From NCBI GenBank assembly GCA_026671195.1, contig JAPOHD010000029.1, positions 212,342 to 276,341 of the forward strand: a stretch of 64,000 bases of DNA, written 5' to 3'. Below are positions 37,037 through 47,785 of this stretch, one piece after another. This stretch comes from Draconibacterium aestuarii. GTDB lineage: Bacteria; Bacteroidota; Bacteroidia; Bacteroidales; Prolixibacteraceae. Below the pieces are notes generated by a model. The model was given only the letters and a program-made list of their open reading frames with translations, was not told where the DNA came from and searched no databases. The translations under genes and the position numbers were made by a program. Numbering within the stretch: the first letter of the stretch is position 1; the number at the start of each line of letters is the position of its first letter.

Positions 37037-37588
37037 ATGAAAAAACAGCCACAATTTAGCTATTACGATGCACCGGTTAAAAACGTAATTCCGCGCAAAA
37101 CAATCACCTTTGCAGATGTATATCGTGCTTTAAGCGGCAACTTCTTAAAAGAGCATACACAACAATTGAGGTTAATAGCTGATAAGACCAAAAACAGGGA
37201 GTTTAAAGCCACTTATTTTCCTTACGTAACTTTCTCAGGTACTTTCAGCAAACGCAACGAAAAAGGCTTAATTCAACACTCAGGGCTTATTGCTTTAGAT
37301 TTCGATCATGTGGAAAATGTTCAAGCTCTAAAAAACAAATTATTGCTTGACAACCACTTTTATACAGAACTTCTTTTTATATCTCCAAACGGCAACGGTA
37401 TAAAATGGATTATCAAAATCGATACTTCAAGAAAGTATTCTCATGCCGATTGGTTCCAAATATTATCCAATTATATAAAAAGTACATACGAAATCGAGGT
37501 GGATAAAGCCTGTAAAGATGTTTCCAGGGCAACATTCCTTTGTTACGATCCTGATGCTTATATAAATCCGAAATACCTGGTAATATGA
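37037..37588 (+). CDS. BT4734/BF3469-type primase N-terminal domain protein
   Basis: 183 residues. The core matches the N-terminal domain found in VirE/BT4734-like replication proteins of Bacteroidota: YFPYVTFSGTFSKR, LIALDFDHVENV, LLFISPNGNGIKWIIKI and SRATFLCYDPDAYINP. The Asp-x-Asp in LDFDH and the GNGIKW block suggest a primase-polymerase-like active site. In many elements this domain is fused to a PriCT domain and helicase; here it is a separate gene whose stop overlaps the next start (ATGA at 37585). Confidence 0.85.
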   Translation: MKKQPQFSYYDAPVKNVIPRKTITFADVYRALSGNFLKEHTQQLRLIADKTKNREFKATYFPYVTFSGTFSKRNEKGLIQHSGLIALDFDHVENVQALKNKLLLDNHFYTELLFISPNGNGIKWIIKIDTSRKYSHADWFQILSNYIKSTYEIEVDKACKDVSRATFLCYDPDAYINPKYLVI

Positions 37589-38004
37589 AACAGAAATTCG
37601 ATCCTGAAATATGGTTGGTAGAACGCAAACCGTTTGATCCATCTCAATGGTTAGATGATCCTGCTCCAGAACCACAAAAAAAACAGGTGCCGGCCAATTA
37701 TTCAAACAACCTCGAATACGACGTTGAAATTGTGGTTCAAAGAATTGAGGAGAGCCAGCTCGATTTAACATGTAATCAAGGAGACTGGGTAAAACTTGGG
37801 TTTGCTTTTGCCTCAGAATTTGGCGAAGTTGGCCGGAAATACTTTCATCGTATTTGTCGCTTTTATTCAGGCTACAGTTATGCCGAAACCGACCAGCAAT
37901 TCAACAAATGCCTAAGAGGGGAAAGGTCCGGGTCTTCTATTAAATCGTTTTTCTTTGCTGCAAAACAAGCCGGTATTAATGTATTTGTAAAACCTCAATC
38001 TTAG
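37585..38004 (+). CDS. PriCT-2-like primase C-terminal domain protein
   Basis: 139 residues. Residues about 45-130 resemble the primase C-terminal domain 2: NQGDWVKLGFAFASEFGEVG, ICRFYSGYSYAETDQQFNKC and GSSIKSFFFAAKQAGI. It overlaps the N-terminal primase gene by four bases and probably forms a complex with it. The split of an otherwise single polypeptide is notable. Confidence 0.75.
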   Translation: MKQKFDPEIWLVERKPFDPSQWLDDPAPEPQKKQVPANYSNNLEYDVEIVVQRIEESQLDLTCNQGDWVKLGFAFASEFGEVGRKYFHRICRFYSGYSYAETDQQFNKCLRGERSGSSIKSFFFAAKQAGINVFVKPQS

Positions 38005-38007
38005 GCT

Positions 38008-38361
38008 ATGGCCAAAATCAAAAGTATCATTGAAAAGTACGACCTTAACAGTAAGGGATTCTTACGAACCATTCTAGAACTCTCCAAGAATGATTTTCCG
38101 GTAGAAATGAAACTGGCAAAAGAGAAATTCCCTGTTAAATTTGCCAGATATTCAGAATCCGGAAAAGTTGTGCCAGCTGAAATGTTTGTAGCAATTTGTG
38201 AGCATTTTACAATCTCCCACCAAAGGATATTAGAAAAGATTGTTGCTTTTTACAACATATCAGAAATTAACGAGATTAAACAAATTGTTAATTGGTTTGG
38301 ATTGAAGCTACCAAAAACAGATGAAGAAATTTCTAGAAAATTTGGACTAAAAAGTACTTAA
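38008..38361 (+). CDS. Unknown small protein of the replication module
   Basis: 117 residues, basic and helical, no recognised domain. It starts three bases after the primase C-terminal gene, so it belongs to the same operon. It may be a DNA-binding or replication accessory protein; no motif supports a firmer call. Confidence 0.6.
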   Translation: MAKIKSIIEKYDLNSKGFLRTILELSKNDFPVEMKLAKEKFPVKFARYSESGKVVPAEMFVAICEHFTISHQRILEKIVAFYNISEINEIKQIVNWFGLKLPKTDEEISRKFGLKST

Positions 38362-38861
38362 TCGTTTTTATCGTACCTAAGCATCCCTAATCGTTTATAT
38401 CATATCGTATCATAATACCCTCAATTTCCCATCACCTATGTTTACATAAAAGTTCTTTGGATTCGTGCTTTTTATCTATGGAAACCATGATCTTAAACTG
38501 GTATATCCTTCAGGTTTACGGTTCTGGAACTTTGGGTTTGTTTCTATTTACCGTTGGCTTTCCTGTTTCGATATACCGGTTTTTAAAAATCGTTTTTTCA
38601 AGTTATGGTTGAAATCAAGGTGTTTTCGCTTCTGGAAAACCGTTTACACAACTTTGTAAGTGGTGTAAACATATTGTGTTTACTGGGCTTACCAACAAAA
38701 ACTATTATGCTTAGGTTTTCTTTGAAAGTAACCCAATAAACCATCAGTTTTCCTTGAAAATATACCCGTATACAAAAGAGAAAACTAGAGTATACAGTAA
38801 TGGTAATCCAAAGAAACTAAGCACGAATACCAGCAAAAATGTTACTTATTTTTTTAATATT
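38362..38861. other. 500-base noncoding region with GTTTAC repeats and an inverted repeat
   Basis: GTTTAC occurs at 38440, 38514, 38642 and 38678 with its complement at 38665. GTTTACAC (38642-38649) and GTGTAAAC (38663-38670) form a perfect 8-bp inverted repeat with a 13-base loop. The short open frame at 38465-38659 has no protein-like features. The region may hold a second origin, a transfer or mobilisation site, or a regulatory site for the downstream DNA-binding-like protein. Confidence 0.45.
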
Positions 38862-39446
38862 ATGAGCAATTCAAAAAAGGTGGTTAAAACCATCAGAATG
38901 ACAGCGGAATTCAATGACAAATTTGAAACCGCTTTTGAAGAATCAAATTTCGATTCAAAAGGTGAATATTTAGAATCATTATTTGACAAAGCAAACGACG
39001 ATGAACCAACAGTAGAGATTGAGGAAGTTGAGAAAGTGATTGAGGTAGAAAAGAAACTCAAATCCAATCAGCTTCTGATTACGTTAACACCAGCTCAGCA
39101 GTTTGTATTACGCGAACATGTAACCCGTTCTCCGGACTTTGCACAAGAACAAAACCGAGTTATCGAAAAACTAGCGAATAAACCCTGGTGGGCTTCAAAT
39201 GATGTTTACAAACCAGAGTTTCAAGAGCTTTGGATTCGAAATATAGAGTTAGACGAAAATATGGAAGAATCTGAAAGGCAAGATGCCATTAAGCACAATA
39301 TGTCTGCCTTCATTATTAATATGTTTCTGGTTAGACTTATTAGTAATGATCTTGATGAATCAGAAGTAAGAGTCGAAGATATTGAAACATTCATCCTGGA
39401 ACAATCTGAAATCTCAAAATCGGTAGAAGATGAAAACGCAGCATAA
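38862..39446 (+). CDS. Unknown protein with ribbon-helix-helix-like N-terminus
   Basis: 194 residues from the ATG at 38862; an in-frame ATG at 38754 adds 36 residues without protein character. The N-terminus (VKTIRMTAEFNDKFETAFEE, then SKGEYLESLF) looks like a strand-helix-helix DNA-binding fold. A central acidic stretch (EIEEVEKVIEVEKKL) and a C-terminal domain (LTPAQQFVLREHV, KPWWASNDVY) follow. It could bind the repeats directly upstream. The family is not recognised. Confidence 0.65.
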   Translation: MSNSKKVVKTIRMTAEFNDKFETAFEESNFDSKGEYLESLFDKANDDEPTVEIEEVEKVIEVEKKLKSNQLLITLTPAQQFVLREHVTRSPDFAQEQNRVIEKLANKPWWASNDVYKPEFQELWIRNIELDENMEESERQDAIKHNMSAFIINMFLVRLISNDLDESEVRVEDIETFILEQSEISKSVEDENAA

Positions 39447-39879
39447 TTTAAGAAAATGCGATTCACCGTTTATTTCTGTGGCAAATAATCCTGAAGAGTC
39501 TGCATTTCTAGGCTTATTTGAAGGTAAGTGGAAAGCCAAAAGAGAAGCCAGACAATCAGAATCCGGGTCCAGTTCTGATAATTCCGGTGGTAGTCCTGTC
39601 TCGCTTGGTAGTGGTGGAGGTTTCTTCAATCTACTTGGTTCAATTTTAGGTGGCACCGCTGGATTGGTTGGTGCTGCAGCTCCAATATTACCGTCATTAG
39701 GAATTGGATCAAAATCCAGGATAGAAGAAACACAAGCCCAGGCGTTGGCTCAAACCCAAATCCTAAATGCACAACAATCAATTCTTGATGAAAAAGCTTC
39801 AGAACAGAAACAAATGCTTATGATTGGCGGAACATTTATTCTTGTGGTAGTAGTTATTTTAGTTGCCTTGCGAAGTTAA
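39430..39879 (+). CDS. Small Gly/Ser-rich protein with C-terminal membrane anchor
   Basis: 149 residues. After a charged N-terminus come a Ser/Gly-rich linker (SESGSSSDNSGGSPVSLGSG), a hydrophobic Gly/Ala segment (LLGSILGGTAGLVGAAAP), a Gln-rich helix (ETQAQALAQTQILNAQQS) and a C-terminal membrane helix (MLMIGGTFILVVVVILVALRS) at the very end. The layout recalls small phage virion or membrane-remodelling proteins, but no family is recognised. It overlaps the preceding gene by 17 bases and is followed by a strong terminator. Confidence 0.65.
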   Translation: MKTQHNLRKCDSPFISVANNPEESAFLGLFEGKWKAKREARQSESGSSSDNSGGSPVSLGSGGGFFNLLGSILGGTAGLVGAAAPILPSLGIGSKSRIEETQAQALAQTQILNAQQSILDEKASEQKQMLMIGGTFILVVVVILVALRS

Positions 39880-39910
39880 CAGGGCTATTGGCATATTTTA
39901 GGTGAATAAT

Positions 39911-39945
39911 CCGGTTCTTGCTTTTGTGGGAGCCGGTTTTTTTTT
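39911..39945 (+). terminator. Rho-independent terminator of the tail module
   Basis: A 7-bp stem (39911-39917 CCGGTTC with 39930-39936 GAGCCGG, one G-U pair) is followed by nine T residues. Flanking AGGTGAATAA (from 39900) and TTATTCATTTCACCT (to 39958) could pair outside it. It ends the operon from the ribbon-helix-helix-like gene. Confidence 0.75.
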
Positions 39946-40073
39946 ATTCATTTCACCTAGTATTCTTTTTTATAAATCGGTATCTAATTCATGCAAAAAA
40001 AACCAAGGATTTATTATTTTGTCAAAGAATTACATAACTACATTTTTCAAAACCTACATTTTATTATACCTAA

Positions 40074-40853
40074 ATGAACGAAATTATCACAACGACAATA
40101 ACATTAGTATCTGGAGGTTTCATTTGGGAAGGATTCAAATTCTTCTATCCGGAAGTAACAAGATATATCGATTCTAGGGTTAAGGCCAAAAAAACTTTCT
40201 ATGAAAATTTAGATCCAATATTAAAATCTTCTAGCGAACTATATGGGAAATTGGAATCACTAGCAAAAGAAGATTTTTCAACTTTCATAAATCCTTCTAA
40301 TTCTAACTCCAAGAACCCAGAACAAAATAAAAAATACGTTTTGTATTTATTTTCTCAGTTCTGGGCTTGCATCGAATTTCTTAGATTAGAAAGTCAATAT
40401 ACCGATCTCTCAAAAAATAAAAAAGGAAAACAATTGTTACGATTTATTGAAACTATTGAATCAAGAAAATATAGAGTTTTAGATCGATCAAACCAGAGAA
40501 TTATTGGTGAATGTTTAATTTTAAATAAAAACCAAAAATTTAAAATCATGACCTTAAACGAATTTTTGGACAATTACGAGACTGTTGATTCCTCTTTTCA
40601 CAAATGGGTTAAAACTTTAGAAAACAAACTCGAACAAGTCAGTGATAAGGAAACAAGACAATTGGTACTTAGATTTGGAGTAATAGTTGCATTGATTATT
40701 GACCATTTTGATCCTTATCATACAACGGTTCGAAGAAGAGCTATATATTTAAATAAATTATCCCCTAAAAGTCACAAAATGATAAAACATAGTTTACTCA
40801 AACATTATCTTACATTTATCAAAAATAAATCAACCTATTATTTATTAAAATAA
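40074..40853 (+). CDS. Unknown membrane-anchored protein at the right end of the element
   Basis: 259 residues. A short hydrophobic N-terminus (IITTTITLVSGGFIWEGFKFF) could anchor it; the rest is a helical, basic domain (YLFSQFWACIEFLRLESQY, RQLVLRFGVIVALIIDHFD). No family recognised. It is the last gene of the element, has its own transcription context after a terminator, and is the kind of right-end cargo often linked to defence; inference only. Confidence 0.6.
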   Translation: MNEIITTTITLVSGGFIWEGFKFFYPEVTRYIDSRVKAKKTFYENLDPILKSSSELYGKLESLAKEDFSTFINPSNSNSKNPEQNKKYVLYLFSQFWACIEFLRLESQYTDLSKNKKGKQLLRFIETIESRKYRVLDRSNQRIIGECLILNKNQKFKIMTLNEFLDNYETVDSSFHKWVKTLENKLEQVSDKETRQLVLRFGVIVALIIDHFDPYHTTVRRRAIYLNKLSPKSHKMIKHSLLKHYLTFIKNKSTYYLLK

Positions 40854-42873: not shown

Positions 42874-43018
42874 TATATCTTTTTGTTACGTTATGCGCAC
42901 AAATTTAACAGCATAATCGGTACCACAAAATGACATTTTTTTTATAAACATAATACATGGTCTTTTTCGGTGATTTACTTTTTCATACCTTAGCAACTAC
43001 CGATAGAACTGTTTCGCT

Positions 43019-43594
43019 ATGAATCCATTCGAGGAAAAGAACTTATTTGAAAAAATACAAACCGGAGATGAAAAGGCTTTCGAGTATTTATTTAAAACCT
43101 ACTATGCAAACTTGTGTGTATTCGCAACGAAGATTATTGAAGACGAAATCGCTGCTGAAGAAATCGTACAGGATTTTTTTGTGAAATTATGGGAAAAGCG
43201 GGCTCAGGTTTCAATTGAAACATCGGTTAAAAATTACCTATTTCGATCGATCAAAAACTTGTGTATTAATCATATCAAACACAATAATGTAAAGCTTCAG
43301 CATGCAAAACAAATTGTTGCCGAGGCTGAAACAAACAATTTCCGCGACAATTTTATTGAAATTGATTTGGCCGTTAAAATTGAAGAAAGTATTCAATCGC
43401 TTCCAGAAAAACGACGCGAAATTTTCAGATTGAGTCGCGAAGAAGGATTAAAATACCGCGAAATTGCCGAAAAATTAAAGTTATCAGTTAAAACCGTAGA
43501 GGCCCAAATGGGGCTGGCACTCAAAACTTTACGAAATAAGTTAAAAGACTATAACACCTTTCTGTTTTTTATATGTGCGTTCAAAACAAAATAG
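43019..43594 (+). CDS. ECF RNA polymerase sigma factor of the STN-protease cassette
   Basis: 191 residues. Region 2 (FKTYYANLCVFATKIIED, then AEEIVQDFFVKLWEKRAQ) and region 4 (LPEKRREIFRLSREEGLKY, then the helix LKLSVKTVEAQMGLALKTL) are clear. It is the first gene of a four-gene cassette on the plus strand, divergent from the transporter gene. Its end (43594) is 40 bases before the start chosen for the FecR gene. It is expected to activate the following genes when released by FecR. Confidence 0.95.
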   Translation: MNPFEEKNLFEKIQTGDEKAFEYLFKTYYANLCVFATKIIEDEIAAEEIVQDFFVKLWEKRAQVSIETSVKNYLFRSIKNLCINHIKHNNVKLQHAKQIVAEAETNNFRDNFIEIDLAVKIEESIQSLPEKRREIFRLSREEGLKYREIAEKLKLSVKTVEAQMGLALKTLRNKLKDYNTFLFFICAFKTK

Positions 43595-43634
43595 ATTTAG
43601 GGGTAAAATAATTGTGTACTGTCATTTAAGTGTA

Positions 43635-44687
43635 ATGAAGAAAAAGGAGAACATAGAAAAATTTGATTGGGAATTACTTGCAAAACAGGTAAGTGACGAA
43701 AGTAATTCGCAAGAAAAATTGAAGGTGAAGGACTGGTTGAGTCAATCTGACAACAACCGGAAAAAACTGGAGCAGACCAAAAAAATGCTCAATAAAATTG
43801 ACACTTATTACCAGGCTAAAAAGTTTAATACCAATTTGGCCTGGATAAATGTACATGCACAAATAAGCCCATCGAAAGAAAAATCTATTCAGCACAAAAA
43901 GAAAAGAAAGGAGGCAATTGCACAATTTTACAAATACGCTGCAATAGTTGTTGTTGCTCTTTTATTGGGCTCTATTGGCTATTTAATTGGTTTTAGAAAC
44001 CAGAATCCGGCAGTTTACAACGAAATCATTTCGGCTGAAAACCAGGTTTTAAAAGAGTATGTTTTACCTGATGGTTCAGTGGTTGCTTTAAACAGCAACT
44101 CAAAACTTCTGTTTCCCAGGAAATTTAAGGGCAACATTCGCGAAGTTACCATTATTGGCGAGGCATTTTTCGATGTAAAACCCAATCCCGAAAAACCGTT
44201 TCTTATTAACGCCGGTGATGCACAAATAAAAGTTTTAGGTACCTCTTTTAACGTGTGCGCCTACCCGGGAACCGAAACCATTGAAGTAACCGTAAAAACA
44301 GGTAAAGTGCAGGTAATCAGCAAACATACTGATCTGATTACCGAAAACCGGGAGGTATTTCTAACTCCCGGAGAAAAAGGAACATTATTCTCCGAAAACC
44401 ATTTACTGGAAAAATCGGTAAATACTGATCCCAATTTCCTTGCCTGGAAAACACATGATTTAATATTTAACGAAGTTCCGTTAATTGAAGTTGTCAGATC
44501 ACTTGAAAAAGCTTACCACATTGAGATTGACCTCAAAGAACCAGAGCTGAATGACCTTTTATATGAGGGTCATTTCGACCAGAAACCGATTGATTTTGTT
44601 TTGGATGTAATTCGGCTCACATTCAATCTGGATTTATCGGTTGACAACGAACTTTACACTCTTTCGAGCCGTACTAACAAACAATAA
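43635..44687 (+). CDS. FecR-family anti-sigma factor with DUF4974
   Basis: 350 residues from the ATG at 43635 (MKKKENIEKFDWELLAKQVS); an upstream in-frame start at 43575 overlaps the sigma gene and adds non-conserved sequence. Cytoplasmic N-terminus, one membrane helix at about 93-114 (AAIVVVALLLGSIGYLIGF), FecR domain (VLKEYVLPDGSVVALNSNS, GEAFFDVKPN, KVLGTSFNVCAY) and C-terminal DUF4974 (LIEVVRSLEKAYHIEIDL). It should hold the upstream sigma factor. In Sus loci the partner is a SusC STN domain; here the only STN proteins are the next two genes. Confidence 0.93.
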   Translation: MKKKENIEKFDWELLAKQVSDESNSQEKLKVKDWLSQSDNNRKKLEQTKKMLNKIDTYYQAKKFNTNLAWINVHAQISPSKEKSIQHKKKRKEAIAQFYKYAAIVVVALLLGSIGYLIGFRNQNPAVYNEIISAENQVLKEYVLPDGSVVALNSNSKLLFPRKFKGNIREVTIIGEAFFDVKPNPEKPFLINAGDAQIKVLGTSFNVCAYPGTETIEVTVKTGKVQVISKHTDLITENREVFLTPGEKGTLFSENHLLEKSVNTDPNFLAWKTHDLIFNEVPLIEVVRSLEKAYHIEIDLKEPELNDLLYEGHFDQKPIDFVLDVIRLTFNLDLSVDNELYTLSSRTNKQ

Positions 44688-44699
44688 AGCCTTGTTGTC

Positions 44700-46265
44700 A
44701 TGAAAACACTATTGAATAAAATTTACTTAGTTGTGATTTTGGCCGTTTTTGCATTGGTACTTTTTCCGATAACACAATATGCCCAGGATAAAAAAAGCCA
44801 GGCGCTCGATCAAAATATCACAATTTATGCTGAAGATGAACCACTGGAAGATGTAATAGAAAAGATCTGTAAATATTTAAATCTCGACTATTCTTACAAT
44901 TCCAACCTGGTTTCTGACAAAAAAATCAGTTTAAATATTTCGAATAAGCCTATTAAATATGTACTCGATAAATTAATGAAGGACTTTTACCTTCTTTTTG
45001 AAATTGAAGATAACCTGCTGGTAGTTCGCGATTATGTTCCACTGGATAAAAGTATTGATTTTGAACAAAATACGCAGCAATATTTCGGAAACAACCGCGG
45101 ATTTCTGTTCGATAATCAACGCGACAAACAAATCACTTTTAAGTTTAAATCGGCCAGTAACCTAATTATTATTCCGGTTACAATTAATGATTCAGACACT
45201 TTGAATTTTATTCTGGATACGGGAGTTCGTTACCCTATTATTACAGAGCTTCCTTTTGTTAATAAGCTGAATTTAAACTACATGATGCCGGTTGAAGTGA
45301 AAGGATTGGGCGAAGGAGTATCGCTAACCGCATACCGCTCGGGGAATAATATCATGCAAATTGACGGACTGACGGCCCGAAACCAGGAAGTACAAATGAT
45401 TATTGACGAAAATTTCCAGATTTCGCACATGTTGGGTATTCCGGTTCATGGTTTAATTGGTTTTAACCTGTTTAAAGATTATGTGGTTGAAATTGATTAT
45501 TTAAACGAAAAACTTACGCTGCACAAACCCGAATATTACAAATACCGCGATCGGAAAAAAGACATCATCATGCCTTTGCATTTCGACGGTAACAAACCAT
45601 TTGTACGTACCAGCATTGTAACCGACGACCTGAAAGAAGTACCAGTAAAACTTTTGGTTGATACGGGAGCCAGCGATGCACTTTGGCTTTCAGAAAGCTC
45701 AGACGAACGCATTAAACTGCCCCAAAACCATATTGAAACATTTTTAGGAAGAGGTTTAAGCGGTGATTTATACGGAACCAAAGGAAGAATTGACGGAATT
45801 TGGGTAGGTCCACTCATTTTACCCAAACCAATTGTTGCTTATCCAAACTCAGAAATAATCGACCAGCTTATTTCTTCGAACGACAGAAATGGTACGATTG
45901 GAGCAGAAATTTTGCGCCGCTTTTTTGTAACCATCGATTATCGAAACGCACGATTAACATTGCGTCCAACGCATAAAATAAAAGAAGAATTTAACTATAA
46001 TATGAGTGGAATGGAAGTAACCAATCCGATGCCCGGATTACCCGTTTATACCATTTCTAATATTCGCGAAAATTCGCCGGCCTATTTCGCCGGATTACAC
46101 GAAAATGATCAGATTTTGTCTATTAACAGTAGTAATCATACATCATTAGAATTAAATGATATAAACTTATTGCTTCAAAGTAAAGAGAACAAAAAAATTA
46201 AATTAAAAGTGTTACGAAACGGAGAAGAATTTAAAACTTCTTTTGAACTGAAAAAGATGTTTTAA
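44700..46265 (+). CDS. STN domain + tandem retropepsin-like aspartic protease + PDZ
   Basis: 521 residues. A signal peptide (VVILAVFALVLFPITQYAQ) is followed by an STN-type domain (about 35-105: AEDEPLEDVIEKICKYLNLD, then ISNKPIKYVLDKLMKDFYLL). Next are two retropepsin-like modules, each with an aspartic protease DTG: D173-T-G in FILDTGVRYPII and D321-T-G in LLVDTGASDALW. A PDZ domain ends the protein (about 440-515: NSPAYFAGLHENDQILSIN). Two DTG motifs in one chain could form a complete pepsin-like active site without dimerising. Aspartic protease-PDZ proteins are known in Bacteroidota; the STN fusion and the sigma/FecR context are unusual. Probably periplasmic. Confidence 0.85.
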   Translation: MKTLLNKIYLVVILAVFALVLFPITQYAQDKKSQALDQNITIYAEDEPLEDVIEKICKYLNLDYSYNSNLVSDKKISLNISNKPIKYVLDKLMKDFYLLFEIEDNLLVVRDYVPLDKSIDFEQNTQQYFGNNRGFLFDNQRDKQITFKFKSASNLIIIPVTINDSDTLNFILDTGVRYPIITELPFVNKLNLNYMMPVEVKGLGEGVSLTAYRSGNNIMQIDGLTARNQEVQMIIDENFQISHMLGIPVHGLIGFNLFKDYVVEIDYLNEKLTLHKPEYYKYRDRKKDIIMPLHFDGNKPFVRTSIVTDDLKEVPVKLLVDTGASDALWLSESSDERIKLPQNHIETFLGRGLSGDLYGTKGRIDGIWVGPLILPKPIVAYPNSEIIDQLISSNDRNGTIGAEILRRFFVTIDYRNARLTLRPTHKIKEEFNYNMSGMEVTNPMPGLPVYTISNIRENSPAYFAGLHENDQILSINSSNHTSLELNDINLLLQSKENKKIKLKVLRNGEEFKTSFELKKMF

Positions 46266-47785
46266 TGCATCGAAAAAAACTAGTTATATTAGCTGCTATC
46301 CTGTTGCTGTCGCTTGTATCTATAGGCCAGCAACAGGATGGTTCTGTTTTTGAACGCCGGATCACCATCAGCCAACCTAATCAAACACTCGATTTTATTC
46401 TGGAACAAATCAGCTGGCAGGCAAACGTCTTTTTTTCTTATGATGCATCCATTATTAATTCAACGGAAAAATATACCATCGAAGCCAAAAACAAATCACT
46501 CTACACCGTTCTAAATCAACTTTTCGACAGTAATAAATTCCACTTAAATGAACTGGAAAACCAAATAATTATTACTAAAAAACAGGAGCAATCCGTATCC
46601 AGTAACACGGTGAACGATTCAATCCAGATCAAATATTTTTTTCTTTCAGGAAAAATAATTGAGCAGCGAAAAGGCCGGCCGTTAATATATGCTTCGGTTT
46701 CGGTGCACAACAAACCCATCGGTACAATTAGCAATACCGATGGCGAATTTCTTTTAAAAATCCACCCCGACAATATTCTGGATACGATTATTATTTCGAG
46801 TATGGGTTATGCACAAAAAAGGATTCCAGCCTATAATCTGCTCGACGAAGATTTATTTATTCTTTCGCCCATTTCAATCCAAATAAAAGAGGTAAAAGTT
46901 ATCGCAACCACTCCAAAACAATTATTAAAAAATATGCGCGACAACCTTAGCAAAAATTATTCGTCGCACAGCAAGTTAATGACGGCGTTTTACCGTGAAA
47001 CAGTGAAGCAGGACAATAATTATATTAATGTTTCGGAAGCGGTTATGGAAATATTAAAATCGCCATACGAAAATACTTCACGCATCGATTTGGTGCGTCT
47101 TTTAAAAGGAAGAAAAAGTCCGGACGTACAACCTTTTAAATGGCTGAATTTTAAATTACAGGGGGGACCTTTTACAATTACCCAACTCGATGTGATTAAA
47201 ACAGTAGAAAGTTTTATCGATCCAAAATATGAAGAACTGTATAATTACGAGATCGACCGTGTAATTTGGTACAATAACCATCCGGTGTATGTGGTGAAAT
47301 TTCATCCGCTTTCTTCCACTTTTTATCCGGCTTTTGAAGGAGAAATGTATGTTCATCGTGAAACATTTGCATTGTTGCACGCCAGTTACCAAATTAGTAA
47401 AGCAGGACTTAAAGAGGCCAGGGAGGTTATGATTATGAAAAAACCACCCAAAGTAAAAGCAGGCCCCACCTTTGTTCATTATAGCGTTTCATTTCAACAA
47501 TACCAGGGAAAATGGCAGTTGGCGTCGGCCCAGGCATCGGTAAAATTTAAGGTACGCAGCAAACGCGACCGCTTGAATTCCGAATTCCATAGTGTTTCCG
47601 ATTTATTGATAACAAACATAGAATCGACTGAATTAAAGCGTTTTACAAAAGATGAAAAATTTACAAAACAAGATATTTTTGTAGAAAACCTGGGTAAATT
47701 CGATGAAAAATACTGGGAAAACTACAACATTATAAAACCCACCGAAGATCTGCGCAAAGCTTTTAAAAACGAATCGTTAAACTGA
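46265..47785 (+). CDS. STN domain + carboxypeptidase-regulatory-like domain protein
   Basis: 506 residues. Signal peptide (LVILAAILLLSLVSIGQQ), STN-type domain (about 30-100: SQPNQTLDFILEQISWQAN, AKNKSLYTVLNQLFDSNKFH), then a carboxypeptidase-D-regulatory-like beta domain (about 122-205: LSGKIIEQRKGRPLIYASVS, GTISNTDGEFLL). The C-terminal 290 residues (MTAFYRETVKQDNNYINVSE, then HRETFALLHASYQISKAGLK) resemble the tail of Bacteroidota proteins annotated only as carboxypeptidase-like regulatory domain proteins. No TonB plug or barrel is present. Its ATG shares one base with the protease stop, so the two are translationally coupled. Confidence 0.82.
   Translation: MHRKKLVILAAILLLSLVSIGQQQDGSVFERRITISQPNQTLDFILEQISWQANVFFSYDASIINSTEKYTIEAKNKSLYTVLNQLFDSNKFHLNELENQIIITKKQEQSVSSNTVNDSIQIKYFFLSGKIIEQRKGRPLIYASVSVHNKPIGTISNTDGEFLLKIHPDNILDTIIISSMGYAQKRIPAYNLLDEDLFILSPISIQIKEVKVIATTPKQLLKNMRDNLSKNYSSHSKLMTAFYRETVKQDNNYINVSEAVMEILKSPYENTSRIDLVRLLKGRKSPDVQPFKWLNFKLQGGPFTITQLDVIKTVESFIDPKYEELYNYEIDRVIWYNNHPVYVVKFHPLSSTFYPAFEGEMYVHRETFALLHASYQISKAGLKEAREVMIMKKPPKVKAGPTFVHYSVSFQQYQGKWQLASAQASVKFKVRSKRDRLNSEFHSVSDLLITNIESTELKRFTKDEKFTKQDIFVENLGKFDEKYWENYNIIKPTEDLRKAFKNESLN

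Follow-up and report, generated by a model that had tools for sequence, protein, structure and literature searches.

The four genes and their domains

The window analysed here, 64,000 nucleotides of Draconibacterium aestuarii (contig JAPOHD010000029.1, from an assembly of 6.37 Mb), contains a cassette of four closely set genes on one strand, which we refer to as SIG, FECR, PROT and CRP (Table 1); a divergent POT/MFS gene and rbfA flank it. An earlier note on this DNA had read the set as an extracytoplasmic function (ECF) sigma factor, a FecR protein, an STN protease with a PDZ domain and a further STN protein, and the analysis bore this out. SIG and FECR stand in tandem, the arrangement of a FecI-FecR module with its ECF sigma factor and FecR-type anti-sigma factor. 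FECR carries the Pfam domains PF04773 and PF16344 and, judged by eye, the hydrophobic segment FYKYAAIVVVALLLGSIGYLIGF; an RseA domain is absent from its Pfam report, and it is a FecR-type and not an RseA-type partner.

Table 1 The cassette genes and the promoter-like element ahead of them, in window coordinates
Feature	Position	Strand	Description
Promoter-like element CTTTTTCATACCTTAG	42978..42993	+	25 nt ahead of SIG start
SIG	43019..43594	+	ECF sigma factor, NCBIfam TIGR02985 (Sig70_bacteroi1), 175.3 bits against a cut-off of 126.4
FECR	43635..44687	+	Anti-sigma factor: hydrophobic segment, FecR domain, C-terminal FecR_C/DUF4974
PROT	44700..46265	+	N-terminal hydrophobic segment, STN (about residues 39-111), two-lobed aspartic protease (131-426; D173, D321), PDZ (about 450-515)
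CRP	46265..47785	+	N-terminal hydrophobic segment, STN (30-112), SusC-type NTE/CarboxypepD_reg (123-207), predicted LolA/LolB/RseB-like domain (214-465)

The predicted model of PROT (521 aa) is a two-lobed pepsin-like aspartic protease, and its sequence has a D-T/S-G motif in each of two homologous lobes, as in the two-lobed enzymes of clan AA. The closest structure is a Bacteroides fragilis endopeptidase (PDB 9iy9), with the matched part starting at residue 150. Against the sequences of solved structures, nearly all matches were to PDZ domains, both among the best 60 of 72 for the single sequence and among the best 60 of 171 for alignment A2 (42 of 53 PROT sequences plus that of the window, after removal of near-duplicates and a few more sequences). 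PROT shares the aspartic protease catalytic motif with 9iy9 and with RloA of Pseudomonas, which has a signal peptide (PMC12239564). RloA differs in being retropepsin-like, and the word 'PDZ' does not occur in PMC12239564, whereas PROT combines two lobes in one chain with PDZ and STN domains.

The C-terminal part of CRP (506 aa) is predicted to form a LolA/LolB-like half-barrel, a fold also present in the sigma-E regulators RseB and MucB, and the likeness is at the level of the fold alone. RseB and MucB also have a C-terminal RseB domain; beyond residue 465 the CRP model has short helices alone, and the ranges aligned to LolA-type folds end at about 465-468. Because of this predicted domain, a lipid or lipoprotein is suggested as the ligand of CRP. 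Alignment A1 (37 of 46 complete CRP sequences plus that of the window, again after such removals) matched SusC-type and TonB-linked receptor chains among the sequences of solved structures, and one ribosomal protein at 0.22. Plug and barrel families were absent from the Pfam matches of PROT and CRP, and the predicted models contain protease-PDZ and LolA-like domains with no outer-membrane barrel.

The STN assignments of the earlier note hold. In single-sequence Pfam scans both regions fell below the cut-off (12.6 and 14.5 bits against 28.4), whereas profile-profile comparison over the family supported them. The two regions matched each other at 99% (4e-18) and the STN domains of eight transporters in this genome at 94-99%, with PDZ, NTE and protease-lobe controls at 3% or below. 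Given these matches and the low controls, we accept the STN regions of both proteins as real at the level of sequence profiles; the STN order of strands and helices is visible in both predicted models. In the same kind of comparison FecR_C matched the STN of PROT at 86-88% and that of CRP at 76-80%, against just 11-27% for the transporter STN set.

Conservation and history of the cassette

Among 140 genomes of the family, PROT has a match at 1e-12 in 107 and CRP at 1e-8 in 135, some of the latter possibly just through transporter NTE domains. Reading the 109 loci of these 107 PROT genomes (two genomes have two contigs each), we found SIG, FECR, PROT and CRP complete, in this order and on one strand in 96 (one with a stop inside PROT), so the gene order described from this single stretch is not unique to it. 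Contig ends break the cassette in nine further genomes, where the remaining part agrees with the order; PROT stands alone in two, and a third solo PROT is that of locus L063. Draconibacterium orientale FH5T is one of the strains that carry the cassette (L045). The earlier description of STN proteins without a transporter also survived: the 109 loci, in stretches of up to 14 kb, contained neither a plug or barrel match nor any frame reaching 880 aa. PROT is missing from 33 family genomes: those of five of the 23 genera, plus one other genome from the window's own genus. A gene for an RseP-type site-2 protease was present in all six genomes checked. In 44 of the 96 complete cassettes the next gene after CRP encodes an MG2-type protein (about 850-870 aa), at the place that rbfA takes in the window; this protein has MG2 and CarboxypepD_reg domains (Pfam on L103 and L114), with a weak Plug match in L103 only.

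At the level of the class, PROT matches at 1e-12 occur in at least 64 of 395 genomes of the class besides the window's own genome; up to three candidates were scored per genome, so the counts are lower bounds. All matches in these 64 genomes begin at query residue 71 or later, and the fusion of STN to the protease as a general trait of Bacteroidota was not seen among the 395. Both catalytic aspartates are kept in all 39 STN-less relatives read, and the stretch ahead of their protease domain is mostly short and signal-peptide-like (judged by reading; the STN profile was not run). Within the family, when the four genes are compared, omega is lowest for PROT in eight of nine pairs (0.02-0.12) and highest for FECR in all nine (0.13-0.34); these values are rough, with synonymous divergence (dS) above 1 in many pairs, infinite dS and no value in others, and frames taken from stop to stop.

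Eight order-level CRP loci were also read (L179-L186). Five of them, in two other families of the order, lack PROT and have an STN-less CRP, SIG, FECR and an STN-bearing CRP; L184 has CRP without SIG or FECR, and L185 and L186 have an STN-less CRP alone. In L179-L183 the STN-less and the STN-bearing gene flank SIG-FECR, a pairing that suggests duplication and capture of an STN domain. By profile comparison, the N-termini of order-level CRP proteins match transporter STN at 95%, the STN of family CRP at 99% and that of PROT at 47%, and sequence conservation extends over the C-terminal half of CRP in five order-level loci. SIG, FECR and CRP likewise occur without PROT in all seven loci read from two PROT-less genera, which were picked for full-length CRP (FECR is in two pieces in L104). 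After CRP, five of these have an MG2-type protein or its start (L103 by Pfam; L104, L105, L117 and L120 by a similar N-terminus), L106 has a contig end and L107 a penicillin-binding-protein gene.

On the CRP tree, in which some deep supports are modest (0.63-0.79), the order-level PROT-less cassettes are placed outside the family, while the seven PROT-less loci group as a single clade that sits within PROT-bearing ones. On this placement we reject the protease as the ancestral partner. As far as sequence comparison goes, SIG-FECR-CRP is the older core and PROT a later addition; the family probably acquired PROT early and has since lost it on at least one occasion. Since each of the three solo PROT genes occupies a nested position, SIG, FECR and CRP were probably lost around them.

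A possible envelope-stress switch and its alternatives

The cassette is a variant of cell-surface signalling whose design resembles the sigma-E stress system, with the LolA-like STN protein as the older signalling partner. It shares with FecI-FecR-FecA and FoxI-FoxR-FoxA the ECF sigma factor, the FecR-type anti-sigma factor, an adjoining STN partner and RseP in the genome, but has no TonB-dependent barrel; its proteins carry the N-terminal STN of TonB-dependent transducers, on a protease and a LolA-like protein, but neither the plug nor the outer-membrane barrel of 22 strands. In CRP the STN-NTE head of a SusC-type transporter is retained and the pore replaced. The likeness to sigmaE-RseA-RseB-DegS and AlgU-MucA-MucB-AlgW lies in the sigma factor, the anti-sigma factor, a periplasmic regulator with a predicted LolA fold, as in RseB and MucB, and a periplasmic protease bearing a PDZ domain, as in DegS. 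In contrast to those systems, the anti-sigma factor is of FecR type, the protease is aspartic and not serine, docking would use STN, and CRP has an NTE domain. The degS gene lies outside the rpoE operon. LolA, LolA3 and LolB of Bacteroidota differ from CRP, which carries STN and NTE domains and adjoins FECR. The main text of PMC11885536 contains neither 'FecR' nor 'RseB', and that of PMC13103446 neither 'STN' nor 'operon'. Among the matches listed, titles and abstract openings gave no published description of this gene set (most subscription journals and bioRxiv preprints lie outside the coverage).

In PMC11637429, the FecR-type protein FoxR is shielded by the STN domain of FoxA and broken down by Prc and RseP; the paper treats its site-1 protease as not yet identified and suggests that STN domains may contact PDZ proteases too. 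In MucA-MucB and RseA-RseB, according to PMC7400510, the anti-sigma factor is guarded against a PDZ protease by a LolA-like protein, and lipid releases it. The evidence for the anatomy of our cassette is good; that its proteins bind, sense lipid and cleave is what we infer. Tentatively, and without rating it probable, we favour a FecI-FecR-type switch in which two periplasmic STN proteins replace the transporter and which works like sigmaE-RseA-RseB-DegS. At rest, by analogy with FoxA/FoxR, RseB/RseA and MucB/MucA, the STN domain of CRP would bind the C-terminus of FECR and shield it. Capture of a misplaced lipid, a lipoprotein or a similar acylated molecule by the half-barrel would make CRP release FECR; PROT, docked through its own STN, would cleave the periplasmic part of FECR as a site-1 protease; RseP would complete the cut and free SIG; and fresh CRP would restore the shield. 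The cleavage by PROT and the restored shield are the weakest of these steps. In PROT-less genomes another protease such as Prc may act in place of PROT. That a FecR factor was rebuilt into an envelope-stress sensor converging on sigmaE-RseA-RseB-DegS, with the STN-LolA protein as a lipid-gated shield and the STN-borne aspartic protease as a dedicated site-1 protease, is the more doubtful proposition.

The earlier note suggested that the protease may make the signal in place of substrate uptake. A signal from the protease and not from a sensed ligand is not supported: the core with an STN-bearing CRP stands without a protease in the five order-level loci (the other three lacking SIG or FECR) and in the seven PROT-less loci, which makes CRP the older FecR partner; a LolA/LolB/RseB-like domain is predicted in CRP; and three genomes keep a PROT with a lost catalytic aspartate. 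Several findings also weigh against the lipid-gated switch that we favour. Three genomes keep PROT, with its STN, in the absence of SIG, FECR and CRP, so PROT and its STN are of use even outside the cassette; genome G023 has one FecR_C match besides PROT and no more. Whole genera are without PROT, and SIG-FECR-CRP presumably works without it elsewhere. The promoter-like element is not private to SIG. The aspartate losses affect three of the 107 PROT genomes (some sequences are partial), namely L214, with D321N plus DNS at the first motif, and L230 and L231, with D173N plus DMG at the second. All three proteins remain constrained, somewhat relaxed in L230/L231 (omega 0.116), and their sequences mark them as candidate pseudoproteases still under purifying selection. 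Elsewhere the first motif reads DTS in L194 and DTD in L101; six PROT pieces without one or both motifs are fragments.

Because of the solo PROT genes, the lost aspartates, the PROT-less cores and the non-private promoter, we hold close behind the switch a reading of PROT as its output, itself doubtful: a SIG-induced envelope quality-control protease for misfolded periplasmic or surface proteins. Its STN would then help in assembly or dock it to CRP or further STN proteins, and Prc-like proteases would cut FECR, as they do in Pseudomonas. The conservation of PROT, the best conserved cassette member by identity in one set of loci and the one with the lowest omega in most pairs, and the intact aspartates of its STN-less relatives agree with such a role, which leaves unexplained why it is in FecR operons that the protease bears a fused STN, and why PROT is so tightly spaced with FECR. 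It is unlikely that both STN proteins are pseudo-receptors that bind FECR once SIG is active, stop its breakdown and shut the response off, with enzyme activity and lipid binding secondary. Overproduced STN signalling domains do inhibit cell-surface signalling in Pseudomonas, according to PMC11637429, and PROT stays constrained where an aspartate is lost; however, such losses were seen only in the three genomes named, and the C-terminal half of CRP is conserved even at the level of the order. An ordinary nutrient-uptake system, with its transporter elsewhere in the genome and the two STN proteins as accessories, seems very unlikely. The genome does have 25 STN matches in frames of 919-1291 aa and 38 FecR_C matches, some in transporter frames and one in PROT, but all eight transporter loci examined in it have a FecR gene of their own alongside, and the search for plugs, barrels and long frames in the 109 family loci came out empty.

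If the sensor proposition is true, the STN-borne PROT would be the site-1 enzyme still missing in cell-surface signalling, directed to its substrate by a domain of transporter origin. STN would serve here as a portable adaptor, linking to a FecR switch two periplasmic domains unrelated to each other, the pepsin-like protease and the LolA-like half-barrel, and the operon offers a natural STN-protease fusion for testing the suggested STN-protease contacts and the missing FecR-type site-1 protease. A further suggestion from the operon is that, in Bacteroidota, part of the large stock of FecR/sigma pairs may watch the envelope and not nutrients.

Promoter-like element and upstream region

Of 96 upstream stretches of SIG, each 180 nt long, 61 contain a relaxed form of the element, against 1.6% of mononucleotide shuffles, and the other 35 do not. 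The strict form, CTTTTTNNTAMCTTMG, is found once in the window's own genome, ahead of SIG, where its backward-read control has six matches; the relaxed form has four matches and its control 16. In this and related genomes the element also precedes genes whose sequences resemble prmA, gmd and that of another ECF sigma factor (names by sequence reading). In view of the control counts and the unrelated genes carrying the element, we reject a private sigma promoter that would prove autoregulation of SIG. Since it is found ahead of unrelated genes, the element is probably a general promoter type of this group, not proof of autoregulation, and no regulon was drawn. The motif TACCTT(A/C)GC recurs 14-56 nt ahead of the start codons of unrelated genes in L298, L301, L305, L306, L307 and L309.

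Further upstream, positions 37585-40853 of the window contain a PriCT-2 primase-type open reading frame (PF08707, 2e-9) followed by frames without a Pfam match over the cut-off (three scanned). This region, upstream of the cassette, may mark the border of a mobile or phage-like element.
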